64,000 nucleotides of DNA from contig NZ_CP125947.1 of NCBI RefSeq assembly GCF_030064165.1, positions 310,001-374,000 on the forward strand. Direction: 5' to 3'. The notes under the pieces were generated by a model. The model saw only the letters and a list, made by a program, of their open reading frames with translations. It was not told where the DNA came from and searched no databases. Within the stretch, counting starts at the first letter, position 1. Each line of letters opens with the position of its first letter. Source of the stretch: Comamonas resistens. GTDB lineage: Bacteria; Pseudomonadota; Gammaproteobacteria; Burkholderiales; Burkholderiaceae_C. Position numbers and translations under genes: made by a program. Below are positions 25,485-52,707 of this stretch, one piece after another.

Positions 25485-25567
25485 GGTTCTGGAGCGACGC
25501 GGCACGAGAGTCCGTGTCCTTGCTGGCCGTATGCTTGGCGCGTAGACCCACAGACAAGGACCGTGTG

Positions 25568-26617
25568 ATGAACTATTGCTCCGAGCAGGAAATAGCCCAG
25601 GCCATAGAGCCGGTGCTGGAAGATGCCGAACTGGCGCGCCAGTTGGCGGCTCAGTCCCGCCCTGCGGTCTGGCTACAGACCCAGCTGGCGCAGGGCGAGG
25701 ATGAAATTCCGCTCGGCGCAACCAAGCTGGGAGGCTGCCCTGATTTGCCTGCACAGACGCGCTGGCCGGAGCGTGGCCCTTATCCCGATACGCATCAGCG
25801 CGTGGAGTCTCTCCGCGCAGACAGCGTGGCGCCCAATAGTCGCTGGCGCTGGGCCAAGCCGGAACAGGCGCAAAAATTCCGCGCCGAGGCACTGCAGCAT
25901 GTCGAGCGGCTGCTGAACCCGTTTCCGCTGCATTTTCTGGCCCAGATCAACTTTGCCGATGTCTGGGCTGCCGGGCCTGTCGATGAGGATATGCCGCGCT
26001 CAGGCCTGTTGTCGCTGTTCTATGACCTTGAGGAGCAGCCCTGGGGCTACGACCCGGCGGACGCCTGTTCGCTGAAGGCGCTGTGGCATGAAGCCGGCAG
26101 CCAGCTGCAGCGCCATGAGCAACCGGCGGCGCTGCAGGCCATCAGTGCCGACTGGCAGATCAAGCCTGCGACCTGTGAGTTGCACGCCTGTCGTGCGCCT
26201 TTGTCCATGGAGTCGGCCCAGTGGAACGCGCTGCAGCTGCCACTGACCGAAGAGCAGGAGGATGCTTTTGCCGAGTGGTGGTTTGACGAGGCGCAGAACG
26301 ACGCCAGCAACGACGGCGAAGACGCCTGCTGTCATCGCATCGGAGGCTGGCCCACGCCGGTGCAGGGAGATATGCAGACCGAATGCGCGCTGGTGGCTGC
26401 CGGACAGTACTGCGGCAATGGCCAGGCCTATCAGGATCCTGCGTTGCAGGCCGTACGGGAGACTGCGGGCCAGTGGCTGTTGCTGCTGCAGCTGGGCACC
26501 GATGAAAAACTGGGCATGAACTGGGGCGATAACGGCCAGCTCTATCTGTGGATCCGCCGGGACGATCTGCGTGCCCGCCGTTTTGACAAGGCGTGGCTGG
26601 TGCTGCAATGCCATTGA
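25568..26617 (+). CDS. YwqG-like protein (DUF1963 family)
   Basis: The 349-residue protein resembles the YwqG/DUF1963 family: the early LGGCPDLP and WP segments, HFLAQINFADV in the middle, GLLSLFYD, and a C-terminal LLLQLGTDEKLGMNWGDNGQLYLWI block that is the family's best-known signature. Its function is unknown; members are soluble and widespread without a consistent context. The ATG at 25568 is preferred over the upstream open frame because a GGACCGTGTG site precedes it. It is followed by the gene-poor stretch with the Fur-like promoter. Confidence 0.8.
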   Translation: MNYCSEQEIAQAIEPVLEDAELARQLAAQSRPAVWLQTQLAQGEDEIPLGATKLGGCPDLPAQTRWPERGPYPDTHQRVESLRADSVAPNSRWRWAKPEQAQKFRAEALQHVERLLNPFPLHFLAQINFADVWAAGPVDEDMPRSGLLSLFYDLEEQPWGYDPADACSLKALWHEAGSQLQRHEQPAALQAISADWQIKPATCELHACRAPLSMESAQWNALQLPLTEEQEDAFAEWWFDEAQNDASNDGEDACCHRIGGWPTPVQGDMQTECALVAAGQYCGNGQAYQDPALQAVRETAGQWLLLLQLGTDEKLGMNWGDNGQLYLWIRRDDLRARRFDKAWLVLQCH

Positions 26618-26667
26618 TAAGCCTGCTTGGCTGTCCCGAGGCGGCACAGCATTTTGTGAAAATTTAA

Positions 26668-26697
26668 TTGATATTGATTCTCATTTGGTGTTAAGAT
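26668..26697 (+). promoter_or_regulatory. Candidate Fur-controlled sigma-70 promoter
   Basis: TGATATTGATTCTCA (26669-26683) matches the Fur 7-1-7 consensus TGATAAT-n-ATTATCA at 12 of 14 positions. It overlaps a likely -35 TTGATA (26668-26673), with a -10 TTAAGA or TAAGAT 17-18 bases further on. Iron-bound Fur sitting here would block RNA polymerase. No protein gene follows in the right place. Confidence 0.6.
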
Positions 26698-26859
26698 TCG
26701 AGCCAGCTTGCAGCGCAGAACTCTGGTGGGGTACACACGCTGCGCAGCTCAGTTTCATCGTGGGGCGACTCGTCAGGCCAGTTCAGCCTGCAGTCGTTTT
26801 TGCCAGCCAGCGGTTTGCCGGTTAGCCAGGCTTTTTTTGCGATGCATGCTGGGGTGATA

Positions 26860-26900
26860 TGAAATTCATAGCTGCTTGCGCAAGCGCAGCAGGTATATGA
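26860..26900 (+). repeat. Dispersed intergenic repeat, family A (partial copy)
   Basis: ATTCATAGCTGCTTGCGCAA matches the left end of the canonical copy at 42738. Its middle diverges. It lies about 25 bases after the T-tract that might end a Fur-controlled transcript. Confidence 0.55.
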
Positions 26901-26940
26901 AGTCAAAGGTGCTATGAAATCGTTGGTATGAATGCGCTGG

Positions 26941-26966
26941 AAGCTCCTGATTCGGGAGCTTTTTTA
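26941..26966 (+). terminator. Intrinsic terminator in the gene-poor stretch
   Basis: AAGCTCC and GGAGCTT form a perfect 7-bp stem around TGATTCG, followed by TTTT and further T. No annotated gene ends just before it, which is part of the case for a noncoding transcript. Confidence 0.75.
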
Positions 26967-27147
26967 TTGCCTGTCCCTGCCTTGCATCTTGCTCAATGGT
27001 GCGGACCAAGCCCGCAATTTCTCGAGAGCAAAATCTTTTCATTGATTGGAGATCTCCGAAGAGTCGCCAGATACCGCTGCAGCGCTGCTCATGGCCCTGG
27101 CCATCTGCTTTGACTGAAGACGCTGTTCTGGCCCAGCCTTGAGCATG

Positions 27148-27174
27148 AAAAAAGCAGCCGCGAGGGCTGCTTTT
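27148..27174 (-). terminator. Intrinsic terminator of the ybeD-lipB-lipA operon
   Basis: On the minus strand GCAGCC and GGCTGC pair around a TCGC-containing loop and are followed by six T. It lies about 20 bases past the lipA stop. Confidence 0.85.
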
Positions 27175-27193
27175 GCTTTGAGTGTCCAGGTGC

Positions 27194-28174
27194 TTAGACG
27201 CCGGCGGCATGCGCCTGCTGATCGGCGTGGTAGCTCGAGCGCACCATGGCGCCCACGGCGGCATGGGTGAAGCCCATCTTGTAGGCCTCTTCCTCGAACA
27301 TCTTGAAGGTGTCGGGGTGCACATAGCGGCGCACGGGCAGGTGGCTGTTGGTAGGTGCCAGGTACTGGCCGATGGTCAGCATGTCGATGTTGTGGGCGCG
27401 CATATCGCGCATCACCTGCAGGATTTCCTCGTCGGTCTCGCCCAGACCCACCATGATGCCGCTCTTGGTCGGCACGTCAGGGTGCAGTTCCTTGAACTTC
27501 TTGAGCAGATTCAGGCTGAACTGGTAGTCGGAACCGGGGCGCGCTTCCTTGTACAGGCGCGGTGCGGTTTCCAGGTTGTGGTTCATCACATCGGGCGGAG
27601 CCGACTTGAGGATTTCCAGAGCACGGTCATCGCGGCCGCGGAAGTCGGGCACCAGGATCTCGATCTGCGTCTCGGGTGAGAGTTCGCGGATGTTCTTGAT
27701 GCATTCCACAAAGTGGCCCGAGCCACCGTCACGCAGATCGTCGCGGTCCACACTGGTGATCACCACGTACTTCAGGCGCAGCGCGGCAATGGTGCGTGCC
27801 AGGTTCAGCGGCTCGTTCACATCCAGCGGATCGGGGCGGCCATGGCCCACGTCGCAGAACGGGCAGCGGCGCGTGCACTTGTCGCCCATGATCATGAAGG
27901 TGGCCGTGCCCTTGCCGAAGCATTCGCCGATATTGGGGCAGGAGGCTTCCTCGCAGACCGTGTGCAGATTGTTCTTGCGCAGAATGTCCTTGATTTCGTA
28001 AAAGCGAGTGCTGGGGCTGCCCGCCTTGACGCGGATCCACTCGGGCTTCTTGAGCACTTCGGCCTGCTCGACCTTCACGGGGATGCGCGAGAGCTTGGCG
28101 GCAGCCTTCTGCTTGGCCAGCGGGTTGTAATCGGCTTGGGATTGCGCTTCGCGCACGACTTCATTGGTGCTCAT
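27194..28174 (-). CDS. lipA: Lipoyl synthase
   Basis: The 326-residue radical SAM enzyme inserts two sulfur atoms into octanoyl groups on lipoyl domains. The auxiliary cluster cysteines are Cys74, Cys79 and Cys85 ([12 protein letters not shown]), and the SAM cluster cysteines are Cys100, Cys104 and Cys107 (CTRRCPFC). The C-terminal RSSYHA provides the serine ligand of the auxiliary cluster, whose sulfur is consumed in the reaction. It follows lipB after ten bases on the same strand, so octanoyl transfer and sulfur insertion are expressed together. An intrinsic terminator follows. Confidence 0.97.
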
Positions 28175-43690: not shown

Positions 43691-43997
43691 GAAGTCCTCT
43701 GAGGTCGTGGGAAGGGAATTAACAATCCATTATAGAAGTGGGGGTAAAGAACGCCAGTGCACGACGATACGGGTTGACGGCCGTGGCATAAAGGAGTTGA
43801 GTTGGATCAACCTCTGCTTGGCTTTTACGCCACAGCCTGCTGCGCCCATGAAAAATGGCACCCCACGCTTGCCACACTTCGTGTGGCCGTTGCCCCTCCA
43901 AGAGGGGCGTTTTTCATCTTGGGACGGCCCGGCGATGAAAAAAGGCGTCCGAAGACGCCTTTGGAGTACCAGCTTGTGAAGCTGTAGTGTTCAGTGT
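43691..43997. other. 307-base intergenic region between cytochrome c and efflux genes
   Basis: It holds the cytochrome promoter at the left end, a possible degenerate family B repeat (about 43841-43930, with CCACACTTCGTGTGG and GCCCCTCCAAGAGGGGC hairpins), and the efflux-operon terminator at 43941-43962. No gene is visible. Confidence 0.6.
43941..43962 (-). terminator. Intrinsic terminator of the RND efflux operon
   Basis: AAAGGCGTC and GACGCCTTT form a perfect 9-bp stem around a tetraloop, with a T-run on the minus strand 3' side. It lies about 35 bases past the outer-membrane gene's stop. Confidence 0.88.
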
Positions 43998-45443
43998 TTA
44001 TTGAACGGTGGTCGCGGAGTTGGCTGCCGCCGCATTGCTGCCGGCTGCCGGCTCGGTCCAGCCACCGCCCAGCACCTTGTACAGATTGACCTGGTTTTGT
44101 AGCTGCTGCAGGCGAACCTGCACCACCGATTGCTCCAGGGCAAACAGCGAGCGCTGCGCATCCAGCAGGTCCAGATAGCTGGCCACGCCGTTGGTGTAGC
44201 GCAGGTCCGACAGCTTGTAGCGCACCTGTTCTGCTTCCAGCTGGCGGGCCTGGGCCTGCAACTGTTCCTGCAGTGTCTGGCGGCTGACCAGTGCGTCCGA
44301 GGTTTCGCGGAACGCGGCCTGAATGGCCTGCTCGTACTGCGCCACGGCAATCTTCTGGTTGGCCTCAGCTACCTGCAGATTGGCCCGGTTGCGGCCAGCG
44401 TTGAAGATGGGCAGATACAGCGACGGTGCGACGCTGAAGTACTTGGAGCCCGAACTGAACAGGTCCGAGATTTCAGGATTGGCAAAGCCTGCAGAAGCCG
44501 TCAGCGAGATATTCGGGAAGAAGGCCGCGCGTGCCGCACCAATGCTGGCATTGGCGGCAATCATGCTTTGCTCGGCCTGACGCACATCGGGACGACGCAG
44601 CAGCAGGTCGGAGGGCAGGCCTGCCGGGACATCGGCCAGCGGAGGCAAGTCGGCCAGCTTCTTGCCCTGCATGCCTGACAGCAGCTCGGCTGGCAAGGTC
44701 TGCCCCACCAATTGGGTCAGCGCGTTGGCATCGAGTTCGCGTTGACGCGTTTGCTGGGCCAGCGTGGCGCGGGCGCTTTCGGTCAGCGACTGGGCCTGGC
44801 GGAAGTCCAGCTCGGAGGTCACACCCGCATCCAGGCGCAGCTTGGTCAGCTTGATGGACTGCTCCCGTGTGCCCAGGGTGCGGCGCGAGATGCTCATCAG
44901 CTCTTCATCGGCCTGCAGGTTCAGCCAGGTATTGGCGACGTTGGAGATCAGGCTGATTTGCGCAGCCTTGCGACCTTCCTCGGTGGCCAGATACTGGGCC
45001 AGAGCCTGCTCCTTGAGACTGCTGATGCGTCCCCAGAAGTCAATTTCCCAGCTGGGCATGGTCAACCCGGCCGTGAAGCTGTTGCCGTACTGGCCTGTCA
45101 GCTGGCTGCGTGCCCGCTGGCCGCCTGCGGCTGCAGCCAATTCAGGGAACTGGCTGGCGCGCTGGATCTGGTATTGAGCCTGGGCCTTCTCGATATTGAG
45201 CATGGCCACGCGCAAGTCGCGGTTGTTATCCAGGGCCAGCTGAATGACCTGCTGCAGGCGCGGATCGGTGAAGAACTGCTGCCAGGGAATGTCAGCAGCC
45301 GCGACCTGGCCTGCGGTCTGTGATGCAGCCGCAGGGAACTGGTCGGCCACCGGCAGGGCCGGGCGATCCAGCTGAGGAATGAAAGAGCAGCCGCCGGCCA
45401 GCAGCGCGCTGGCCAAGGCGATAGGAAGCAGAGTCTTATTCAT
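43998..45443 (-). CDS. RND efflux outer-membrane lipoprotein (OprM/TtgC/NodT family)
   Basis: The 481-residue lipoprotein (lipobox LAGGC, Cys19) is the outer-membrane channel of the pump. Two repeated outer-membrane-factor domains are visible: one from about 60-265 with WEIDFWGRISSLKEQAL, and the second with LPSDLLLRRPDVRQAEQSMI and FFPNISLTASAGF. It forms a trimeric channel-tunnel with the adaptor and pump encoded upstream. The ATG overlaps the pump gene's stop by eight bases. The last residues are Ala/Ser-rich. Confidence 0.94.
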   Translation of the reverse strand: MNKTLLPIALASALLAGGCSFIPQLDRPALPVADQFPAAASQTAGQVAAADIPWQQFFTDPRLQQVIQLALDNNRDLRVAMLNIEKAQAQYQIQRASQFPELAAAAGGQRARSQLTGQYGNSFTAGLTMPSWEIDFWGRISSLKEQALAQYLATEEGRKAAQISLISNVANTWLNLQADEELMSISRRTLGTREQSIKLTKLRLDAGVTSELDFRQAQSLTESARATLAQQTRQRELDANALTQLVGQTLPAELLSGMQGKKLADLPPLADVPAGLPSDLLLRRPDVRQAEQSMIAANASIGAARAAFFPNISLTASAGFANPEISDLFSSGSKYFSVAPSLYLPIFNAGRNRANLQVAEANQKIAVAQYEQAIQAAFRETSDALVSRQTLQEQLQAQARQLEAEQVRYKLSDLRYTNGVASYLDLLDAQRSLFALEQSVVQVRLQQLQNQVNLYKVLGGGWTEPAAGSNAAAANSATTVQ

Positions 45444-50864: not shown

Positions 50865-50940
50865 GCGGCTGTAGCTCAGTGGATAGAGTATTGGCCTCCG
50901 AAGCCAAGGGTCGTGGGTTCGATCCCCGCCAGCCGCGCCA
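50865..50940 (+). tRNA. tRNA-Arg (anticodon CCG)
   Basis: The 76-base sequence folds into a full cloverleaf, from GCGGCTGTAGCTCAGTGGAT to AGCCGCGCCA with encoded CCA. The anticodon loop CTCCGAA gives CCG, reading CGG. It is first of a four-tRNA run upstream of the second tuf. Confidence 0.95.
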
Positions 50941-50998
50941 GTAAACGTCGATCGGCAAAACAAAAAAATCCCTGATTTCTTTTGAGCTGAAAAAACGG

Positions 50999-51007
50999 TG
51001 CTACAAT
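50999..51007 (+). promoter_or_regulatory. Extended -10 box upstream of tRNA-Tyr
   Basis: TGC-TACAAT (50999-51007) is an extended -10 element 13 bases before the tRNA-Tyr gene. A -35 is not clear. Confidence 0.4.
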
Positions 51008-51019
51008 TCGAGTCTCTTC

Positions 51020-51105
51020 GGAGGGGTGGCCGAGTGGTTAAAGGCAGCAGACTGTAAATCTGCCCGCTAACGCGTACACAGGTTCGAATCCTGTCCCCTC
51101 CACCA
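51020..51105 (+). tRNA. tRNA-Tyr (anticodon GTA)
   Basis: The 86-base class II tRNA has a long variable arm (CCCGCTAACGCG region), anticodon loop CTGTAAA with GTA, and encoded CCA. It pairs from GGAGGGG to CCCCTCC at the acceptor. Confidence 0.96.
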
Positions 51106-51159
51106 ATTTGGTGAAGAAGAGAGGTTGCTAGAAATAGTGACTGCGTGCAGTAAATCTGT

Positions 51160-51233
51160 GCGGGAGTAGTTCAATGGTAGAACCCTAGCCTTCCAAGCTA
51201 ATGACGCGGGTTCGATTCCCGTCTCCCGCTCCA
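51160..51233 (+). tRNA. tRNA-Gly (anticodon TCC)
   Basis: The 74-base tRNA runs from GCGGGAG to CTCCCGCTCCA. The loop CTTCCAA carries TCC, reading GGA and GGG codons. It lies between tRNA-Tyr and tRNA-Thr, as in E. coli glyT. Confidence 0.95.
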
Positions 51234-51277
51234 GTTTGCGAGCAAAGATTTTTGAGGTTGCATTTTGCAATTTCGAT

Positions 51278-51352
<75 letters not shown>

Positions 51353-51428
51353 TTTTCTGGTGCGCTCGCTTTGATAGGGTTGCGCCGATATCCTCTTGCA
51401 GTAATTTAGTTTTTTCGGAGTCGGAAAA

Positions 51429-52619
51429 ATGGCAAAAGAAAAATTCGAGCGCACCAAGCCCCACGTGAACGTGGGCACCATCGGTCACGTTGACCACGGC
51501 AAGACCACCCTGACTGCTGCTATCGCCACCGTACTGTCCAAGCACTTCGGCGGTGAAGCCAAGGACTACTCGCAGATCGACAACGCGCCTGAAGAAAAGG
51601 CCCGTGGTATCACCATCAACACTTCGCACGTCGAGTACGAAACCGCTGCTCGTCACTACGCTCACGTGGACTGCCCCGGTCACGCTGACTATGTGAAGAA
51701 CATGATTACCGGTGCTGCCCAGATGGACGGCGCTATCCTGGTTTGCTCCGCTGCTGACGGCCCCATGCCCCAGACTCGCGAGCACATCCTGCTGTCGCGT
51801 CAGGTGGGCGTGCCCTACATCATCGTGTTCCTGAACAAGGCCGACATGGTGGACGACGAAGAACTGCTGGAACTGGTCGAAATGGAAGTGCGCGAGCTGC
51901 TGTCCAAGTACGACTTCCCCGGTGATGACACCCCCATCATCCGCGGTTCCGCCAAGCTGGCTCTGGAAGGCGACCAATCCGACAAGGGTGAACCCGCTAT
52001 CCTGCGCCTGGCCGAAGCTCTGGACACCTACATCCCCACTCCCGAGCGTGCTGTTGACGGCGCCTTCGTGATGCCTGTGGAAGACGTGTTCTCCATCTCC
52101 GGTCGTGGTACCGTGGTGACCGGCCGTATCGAGCGCGGCATCATCAAGGTCGGCGAAGAAATCGAAATCGTCGGTATCAAGGACACCGTCAAGACCACCG
52201 TGACCGGCGTGGAAATGTTCCGCAAGCTGCTGGACCAAGGTCAGGCTGGTGACAACGTGGGTCTGCTGCTGCGCGGAACCAAGCGTGAAGACGTGGAACG
52301 CGGCCAAGTGCTGTGCAAGCCCGGCTCCATCAAGCCCCACACCCACTTCACCGCTGAGGTGTATGTGCTGTCGAAGGACGAAGGCGGTCGTCACACTCCT
52401 TTCTTCAACAACTACCGTCCTCAGTTCTACTTCCGTACCACCGACGTGACCGGCTCCATCGAGCTGCCCGAAGGCAAGGAAATGGTGATGCCTGGCGATA
52501 ACGTGTCGATCACCGTGAAGCTGATCGCTCCTATCGCTATGGAAGAAGGTCTGCGTTTCGCTATCCGCGAAGGTGGTCGTACTGTTGGTGCCGGTGTGGT
52601 TGCCAAGATCATTGCTTAA
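51429..52619 (+). CDS. tufB: Elongation factor Tu (second copy)
   Basis: The 396-residue protein appears identical to the copy at 12061-13251, with the same GTPase motifs. The DNA differs at about a dozen third positions (for example GCC versus GCT for the last Ala), so the copies are kept alike by gene conversion or selection. It sits in the tRNA(Tyr-Gly-Thr)-tufB-tRNA(Trp)-secE arrangement. The leader carries a TTTCGGAGTCGGAAAA ribosome-binding region. Confidence 0.98.
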
Positions 52620-52631
52620 TTATTGGTTTGT

Positions 52632-52707
52632 AGGGGTATAGCTCAATTGGCAGAGCGTCGGTCTCCAAAACCGAAGGTTGTAGGTTCGATTCCTACTGCC
52701 CCTGCCA
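52632..52707 (+). tRNA. tRNA-Trp (anticodon CCA)
   Basis: The 76-base tRNA runs from AGGGGTATAGC to CTGCCCCTGCCA. The loop CTCCAAA gives CCA. It follows tufB by 12 bases, so it is probably cut from the tuf mRNA. Confidence 0.96.

Follow-up and report, generated by a model that had tools for sequence, protein, structure and literature searches.

The DNA analysed here, a stretch of 64,000 nucleotides referred to below as the window, very probably contains at 26669-26838 a free-standing gene whose product is an iron-sparing small RNA, acting in trans and repressed by Fur. The gene with its promoter, structure, family, synteny and complementarity to mRNAs was established by computation. A preliminary description had proposed a candidate iron-repressed small RNA in this place, and the proposal is now strongly supported by a Fur box and a -10 element that are kept in relatives, by covariation, and by the complementarity of a short seed to the mRNAs of iron enzymes.

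The region 26618-26966 is intergenic, flanked by a DUF1963 gene upstream and by a convergent gene downstream which, from its protein sequence, we take to be lipA (Table 1). As the preliminary description had it, a 15-base Fur match overlaps a -35-like hexamer and its spacer, a strong terminator, i.e. a genuine hairpin with a T-run, follows less than 300 bases downstream, and nothing like a protein gene lies between them; the predicted RNA does not contain any ATG. According to a promoter scan of 25500-28000, the TTGATA/TAAGAT pair is the sole promoter-like site, with 0.5 expected. The Fur box by itself is not beyond chance in 64 kb: shuffled versions of the window contain a mean of 0.49 Fur sites with at most three mismatches, and 39 out of 100 shuffles contain at least one. 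It is the conservation, and not the Fur match alone, that chance would not give.

Table 1. Features of the small RNA locus and its flanking genes (window coordinates).
Feature	Position	Strand	Remarks
DUF1963 gene	25514-26617		Pfam PF09234
-35-like TTGATA	26668-26673	+	overlapped by Fur box
Fur box TGATATTGATTCTCA	26669-26683	+	12 of 14 positions of the 7-1-7 consensus
-10 TAAGAT with extended TG	26692-26697	+	promoter scan
Predicted small RNA, ~135 nt	26704-26838	+	start inferred from -10, end from conserved U-run
5' hairpin	26710-26743	+	stem 26710-26715 with 26738-26743
CUCUGGUGGGG in loop of 5' hairpin	26721-26731	+	
Conserved core, 87 nt	26752-26838	+	ends at U-run
Predicted target-pairing seed GUUUCAUCGUGGGG, 14 nt	26752-26765	+	unpaired 5' stretch of core
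Near-invariant 18-mer GTTTCATCGTGGGGCGAC	26752-26769	+	invariant in 30 aligned cores
Covarying stem-loop 1 (CGAC...GTCG, inner AGGC...GCCT)	26766-26796	+	
3' module GCCAGCCA-hairpin-UAGCCAGGC-U7	26802-26838	+	likely 3' end of RNA
Distal terminator hairpin with T6	26940-26966	+	-13.5 kcal/mol
lipA (presumed)	27194-28174	-	convergent to RNA gene

A nucleotide search with 26618-27000 found matches in 31 of 61 genomes (own genome included), every one of the same genus, to which 37 genomes of the sample belong, again counting the own one. The preliminary description had required that the promoter-terminator pair be kept in close relatives, and the two halves fared differently: in 20 of the 31 genomes the promoter (query positions 1-56) and the core are joined in a single alignment, and the other 11 align in one piece over the core only, but the alignment continues through 26839-26966 in only three relatives (G017, G021 and G030). 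It had also pointed to a covariance search; with a model of the 87-nt core, 47 out of 53 genomes of the genus have matches, one to four copies each, as do 106 out of 399 genomes, from 39 of 141 genera, in a sample of the family. An order-level sample contains matches in 10 of 399 genomes, eight of which belong to the family of the window, and nothing credible outside that family; L168 and L169, two loci from outside (E 7.4e-4 and 0.008), were set aside, as they have neither the C-terminal motif of HemP nor the seed. These genome-sample searches used stricter filters, so that relatives with weak matches could have escaped them. Scanning named genomes for the exact pattern yielded at least 120 stretches. 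The 80 matches listed include Comamonas testosteroni ATCC 11996, Delftia acidovorans NBRC 14950 and many Acidovorax, Variovorax and Hydrogenophaga, all of these genera presumably Comamonadaceae by taxonomy, as well as several unclassified metagenome bins, one Aquabacterium and one record named Pantoea. The latter record (Pantoea sp. 18069, NZ_CACSJA010000012.1) has the core pattern and may be a contaminating contig. Elsewhere in the window, 43911-43999 is the second-best match of the family model R2 (E 0.18); many of its pairs are broken, and it is probably due to chance.

Copies were counted on 136 fetched loci (L031-L166), which do not comprise all genome-sample matches: 144 copies, 143 of them distinct, occur in two genetic settings, namely 64 stand-alone and 79 following hemP. 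Of the stand-alone copies, 58 out of 64 have a Fur box with at least 10 of 14 matching positions at -51 to -99 from the core, and 62 have one with at least 9. The control, 5.2% of stretches taken from the same loci, is if anything high because these include hemP promoters, and it belongs to this stand-alone test and not to the 300-nt hemP window used below. Behind the Fur box a -10-like hexamer is present in 56 of the 58 copies, in 55 of them at 7-9 nt; random stretches pass the same -10 test in 16 out of 290 cases. The hemP-linked copies start at -1 to 229 nt from the stop codon of a gene for a short protein with GKLILTK at its C-terminus, which was confirmed as HemP by Pfam in the own genome only (PF10636, E 8.8e-16) and was recognized elsewhere by this C-terminal motif. 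In the 180 nt that precede the core, a Fur box of at least 10/14 is absent from all 79; in 73 of them such a box lies within a 300-nt window that reaches from 480 to 180 nt ahead of the hemP stop codon. Thus, with Fur boxes before stand-alone cores and before hemP, one and the same core is placed under a Fur-type box in two ways. The second copy of the own genome is of the hemP type; its 18-nt seed is identical to that of the window copy, and the Fur box of its hemP gene is TGAGAATTGTTATCA. The hemP setting appears to be the older one, and the stand-alone gene would have arisen by duplication from the Fur-controlled element in the hemP 3' UTR, as a copy freed from hemP.

The site of the window copy is common to 28 stand-alone copies, whose neighbours are ptsI and/or the DUF1963 gene on the upstream side and/or convergent lipA on the downstream side. 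In all 28 the promoter, the structure and the seed have been retained jointly at this site, which argues against the fallback offered in the preliminary description, an orphan Fur promoter left behind by gene loss; Fur matches of this quality are indeed expected fairly often in 64 kb, but the conserved Fur box, -10 element, structure and seed complementarity contradict that reading, and we regard it as almost certainly wrong. A promoter followed by a structured RNA and a U-run could also be a leader or attenuator that acts in cis on the next gene. This reading is made very improbable by the gene arrangement: lipA is oriented against the RNA gene, both in the window and in 23 of the 28 syntenic copies (the stretches examined for the remaining five do not contain lipA), a terminator on the same strand follows the RNA, and other copies are found in different gene contexts.

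Copy number varies among genomes. Four core matches per genome are present in G018, G014, G032, G007, G068 and G020. In G018, all four copies (L029, L093, L094 and L095) have a Fur box of their own and none is behind hemP; judging from these loci, the hemP-linked copy may have been lost in this genome. Tandem copies, the starts of which are about 118-166 nt apart, are seen at L134, L137, L143, L148 and L150, where the pairs are behind hemP, and in Corticibacter populi (L223) and Lampropedia puyangensis (L235).

The preliminary description let the RNA extend over 26700-26966. The predicted RNA is shorter, because the shared core stops at the U-run 26832-26838 and the RNA most likely ends there; an end at 26966 was rejected on the same grounds. 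The 3' hairpin is imperfect and, together with the U-run, a weak terminator (-8.6 kcal/mol). About 100 nt (26839-26939) separate the U-run from the distal terminator, which a consensus terminator scan of the region does not include among its matches. That terminator would serve as a backup or for transcripts that read through, and would not mark where the conserved RNA ends. A T-run hairpin (at most -9 kcal/mol) is present within 250 nt downstream in 28 of 64 stand-alone copies, and in 5 of 64 after shuffling.

In the alignment of 30 cores, the parts follow each other in a constant order, i.e. the invariant GTTTCATCGTGGGGCGAC, a stem-loop, the GCCAGCCA-hairpin-AGCCA module and the U-run. Among the 143 distinct copies, GTTTCATCGTGGGGCGAC is exact in 112 and TCATCGTGGGG in 136. 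Base pairs of the core covary: 14 pairs, arranged in four helices, have 95.5% of their cells paired in an alignment of 108 copies (103 distinct), 11 of the 14 pairs show changes on both sides, and the observed values were reached by none of 500 shuffles. As this alignment had been fitted to an earlier covariance model, it is somewhat biased toward pairing; sliding the pairing partner by one to three columns lowers the core pairing to 20-47%. Helices 1 and 2, which form stem-loop 1, are paired in 99.5% and 96.5% of cells, with two-sided changes at 2 of 4 and 4 of 4 pairs; helices 3 and 4 of the 3' module are paired in 90.3% and 94.0%. The 5' hairpin can be aligned in 16 copies of the genus, where its helix has 96.9% of cells paired and two-sided changes at 3 of 6 pairs. 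For the whole structure including this hairpin the picture is mixed: no shuffle out of 500 reaches the observed cells paired or the covariation score, while 13 reach the number of pairs with two-sided changes and 248 that of further pair types. In 39 of the 79 hemP-linked copies there is no room for the 5' hairpin, the core beginning at most 4 nt past the stop codon. A fold of the single sequence 26704-26968 is no stabler than its shuffles (z -0.82).

This mode of variation, by compensatory base pairs, also bears on the idea that the transcript serves as a tiny mRNA and encodes a short iron-responsive peptide. Such sequences contain small open frames as a matter of course; an ATG frame of at least 12 codons is found in 10 out of 58 stand-alone RNAs, the window RNA has no ATG to start from, and the lengths of the stand-alone RNAs fall into all three classes modulo 3. 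We therefore give this idea very little credence.

We scored the pairing of the seed with start regions (-40 to +20) by duplex energy and ranked the results on a background of 337 genes taken from a 464-kb portion of the own genome, the background starts being chosen by rule and the target starts by inspection. The test set consists of 10 genomes (8 for aconitase) picked by the author from the 53 of the genus; as these are related, the counts are not independent. Four targets, sdhC, SOD, fumA and aconitase, were set beforehand from the lists for BrrF and RyhB; leuC and acnX, the latter from the aconitase family, were picked up when aconitase was searched for, and acnB, sdhA, sdhB, leuD and lipA were added afterwards. 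The gene names are our presumptive assignments from Pfam family, length and N-terminus. Used were 10 out of 17 SOD matches (one type, one per genome), 10 out of 20 Sdh_cyt matches (sdhC), 10 out of 11 fumarases and 23 aconitase loci.

With the fumA and acnA start regions the 14-nt seed GUUUCAUCGUGGGG shows unusual complementarity; the same holds, less firmly, for one SOD, leuC and sdhA. All 10 fumA genes rank among the strongest 3.9% (own genome 1.2%), all 8 acnA genes among the strongest 5.6% (own 1.2%), all 10 genes of the one SOD type among the strongest 7.1% (own 6.5%) and all 8 leuC genes among the strongest 8.6% (own 8.6%). Against the same 337-gene background, sdhC is weak (own 16.6%) and the acnX group fails as a target (own 51.9%). 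When the seed is extended to 18 nt, only fumA (median 2.5%) and acnA (2.4%) stay strong, the medians of SOD, leuC, acnX and sdhC being 23%, 31%, 17% and 64%. The mean over the six gene groups was bettered or equalled by 0 of 600 shuffled 14-nt seeds, which were normalised on 120 of the 337 background genes, and by 2 of 600 for the own genome alone; per group, the number of shuffled seeds as good was 0 for SOD, fumA and acnA each, 18 for leuC, 34 for sdhC and 57 for acnX. Compared with 101 starts of neighbouring genes from the same 10 genomes, fumA (median 0.025) and acnA (0.020) hold, and SOD (0.173), leuC (0.173), acnX (0.238) and sdhC (0.297) drop out. Complementarity to iron-enzyme mRNAs thus exceeds chance for fumA and acnA on every background and with both seed lengths, which makes them the best candidates for targets; SOD, leuC and sdhA are suggested less firmly, by weaker or post hoc results.

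One of the genes added later is sdhA: CACGATTGAAGG is kept in 9 of 9 leaders found (10 genomes searched), ranking within 1.5% of 273, and is also kept in L369, L371 and L373, the sequence of which differs further upstream. For acnB, two genomes only gave 2.6%; the search for sdhB yielded no leader. The leaders of leuD (n=6, median 0.564) and lipA (n=19, median 0.685) behave like background, yet two of the latter are at 0.011. Of the sequences left out at the beginning, the fumarase L394 scored 0.21, six SODs of another type 0.26-0.59 and L363, of a third type, 0.015. Several genomes of the genus contain two SOD types, and the seed pairs with the leaders L353-L362 and not with L347-L352. The matched type is, from sequence signatures, presumably the iron form, and hitting one type and not the other would fit an RNA that is to lower the iron form alone. 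Compared with the targets named in the preliminary description (sdh, sodB and acnA), acnA stands, one SOD and sdhA stand in part, but sdhC is not convincing; fumA, though absent from that list, is the best-supported target alongside acnA.

Duplex energies took the place of a search for near-perfect seed complements. In the own genome these number 100 and 111 against 42 and 48 in the reversed control, part of the excess being a repeat, and no TCA-cycle gene is among the 20 loci inspected. A single complement with one mismatch is located at the start of a transporter permease-like gene, apparently coding for such a permease. The repeat is dispersed in the own genome (e.g. L320 and L326), with GCCCCAAGATGAAAA beside CATCGCCGGGCC, and produces false seed complements.

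The 3' module of the RNA resembles an element that is found more widely. In a raw count, AGCCAGMC occurs within 300 nt in 18 of 33 distinct hemP 3' regions, often twice around a hairpin; these regions represent 35 parsed from 46 loci, two places occurring twice, and three are from the window's own family. At least 17 dyads of the form AGCCAGCC-N12..40-AGCCAGCC, in 16 genomes, lie downstream of a HemP match, on its strand and at most ~110 nt from it. Many other AGCCAGCC dyads are not near hemP, including all four of the own genome. Examples just downstream of hemP come from many families of the Burkholderiales (among others L178, L450, L456, L458, L465, L470, L473 and L487). Alternatively, the RNA, still under Fur control, might act mainly by titrating a protein or another RNA, through the AGCCA module or through the GGUGGGG loop at its 5' hairpin, instead of base-pairing to enzyme mRNAs. 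In favour of this, the 30 aligned cores in which the seed does not vary also share most of the GCCAGCCA...AGCCA module unchanged, and AGCCAGCC pairs around a hairpin recur after hemP across the order even where the GUGGGG seed is missing. Titration would, however, leave unaccounted for a seed that is nearly invariant and the complementarity of which to fumA, acnA and one SOD beats, in each case, all 600 shuffled seeds; we consider it unlikely.

We return to the iron-sparing, mRNA-pairing RNA, for which we consider the following mechanism the most likely. When iron is sufficient, Fur would cover the promoter of the RNA gene; when iron is short, the RNA of ~135 nt would be produced, and its unpaired 5' stretch would pair with mRNAs of dispensable iron enzymes where the ribosome binds and translation starts, covering the Shine-Dalgarno sequence and the start codon. 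Affected would be most clearly fumA and acnA, and probably sdhA, acnB, the iron-type SOD and leuC. Pairing would lower translation or stability of these mRNAs, and iron would be spared. Transcription, Fur repression, the direction of regulation, the iron response and the use of Hfq or another chaperone are what we infer for this gene, with repression, iron response and chaperone use modelled on BrrF and RyhB. In the boldest reading, the AGCCAGCC element would be a protein-binding site. A more extended scenario, which we put forward tentatively as a less likely one, starts from an ancient hemP 3'-UTR element, two AGCCAGCC flanking a hairpin, as a platform to which the seed for iron-enzyme start codons was added; within the family, the RNA would then have escaped repeatedly from hemP with Fur promoters of its own, up to four copies per genome and divergent 5' hairpins, and the AGCCA module would be a protein-binding site common to both forms, coupling heme-uptake status to iron sparing.

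Our results provide a candidate regulator, with its promoter and a short list of predicted targets, for Comamonas, Delftia, Acidovorax, Variovorax and related bacteria, which are common in the environment. What appears to be one RNA in two settings, behind a coding mRNA and under its own Fur promoter, is furthermore a natural case for 3'-UTR RNAs becoming independent genes. Within the best-matching open-licence PMC literature, we found no paper on such an RNA or on an iron-sparing small RNA in Comamonadaceae; PMC3110155, the accessible text of which concerns a Bordetella repeat, was dropped as a relevant prior.

Among the known iron-responsive RNAs, RyhB of Escherichia coli and PrrF1/PrrF2 of Pseudomonas aeruginosa are short RNAs with iron-enzyme mRNAs as targets. 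A Fur box on the RNA's own promoter is their characteristic layout, as described in the available portion of PMC7377471. The preliminary description had rightly recognized this layout here: the Fur box lies on the RNA's own promoter and is conserved in relatives (58/64, with the -10 element in 56/58), the RNA is short, and the predicted targets are iron enzymes, features which, on sequence criteria, would place it in the RyhB/PrrF class. Tandem copies, known from PrrF1/PrrF2, occur in the present family too. The whole window, searched with Rfam at gathering thresholds, contains five tRNA matches only (five tRNA genes are clustered at 50865-52704) and no match to RyhB, PrrF or NrrF, whose models we take to be present in the library used. 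NrrF is a Fur-controlled RNA acting on iron enzymes in a betaproteobacterium. In Neisseria it acts on sdhCDAB and petABC, according to the part of PMC5586341 available to us, whereas sdhC is a weak candidate for the window RNA.

The preliminary description had anticipated a new member for this lineage. No Rfam model matches the RNA at its gathering threshold. It is not an isolated newcomer; it belongs to a family that is also found in the hemP 3' UTR, as is BrrF in Burkholderia. As reported in the accessible text of PMC7377471, BrrF of Burkholderia cenocepacia is cut from the hemP mRNA and induced by low iron, which lowers acnA, fumA, sodB, sdhA and sdhC in a BrrF-dependent manner; it ends at a U-run ahead of a separate terminator, and BrrF/BTH_s39 are Fur-controlled, hemP-linked RNAs of 126-130 nt. 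The same text states explicitly that BrrF has no Fur promoter of its own of the RyhB/PrrF kind (PMC7377471). Its ortholog BTH_s39 of B. thailandensis starts with GTATTGTGGGGACC (primer) and contains TAGCCAGCCA (probe), as far as given in the consulted part of PMC4035088. Formally, the window RNA is not a member of RF02692, the BTH_s39 family: there is no match in the window at the gathering threshold, nor in 26500-27250 with E up to 5. As a positive control, the Burkholderia-type locus L178 has RF02692 directly after hemP with 118.8 bits against a gathering threshold of 77. In the reverse direction, our model R1 reaches at best E 2.9 and 4.2 in the two hemP 3' regions; the best match of R2 in L178 and L179 (6,034 bases) falls on BTH_s39 of L178 with a non-significant E of 0.32, and R2 has no match in the equivalent region of L179.

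The likeness to BrrF/BTH_s39 lies instead in the predicted Fur control, in the link to hemP, shown by the sister copies of the window RNA, in the predicted targets fumA, acnA, sodB and sdhA, which overlap with those of BrrF, and in the order of parts: GUGGGG close to the 5' end, then a stem-loop, AGCCAG motifs, a U-run at the 3' end and, beyond it, a strong terminator. The window copy differs from BrrF in its location away from hemP and in having a Fur box to itself. By analogy, the best reading is that the window RNA works like BrrF/BTH_s39, with which, judging from these shared parts, it probably also shares ancestry; BrrF would thereby gain a wider context than that of an RNA always found behind hemP.
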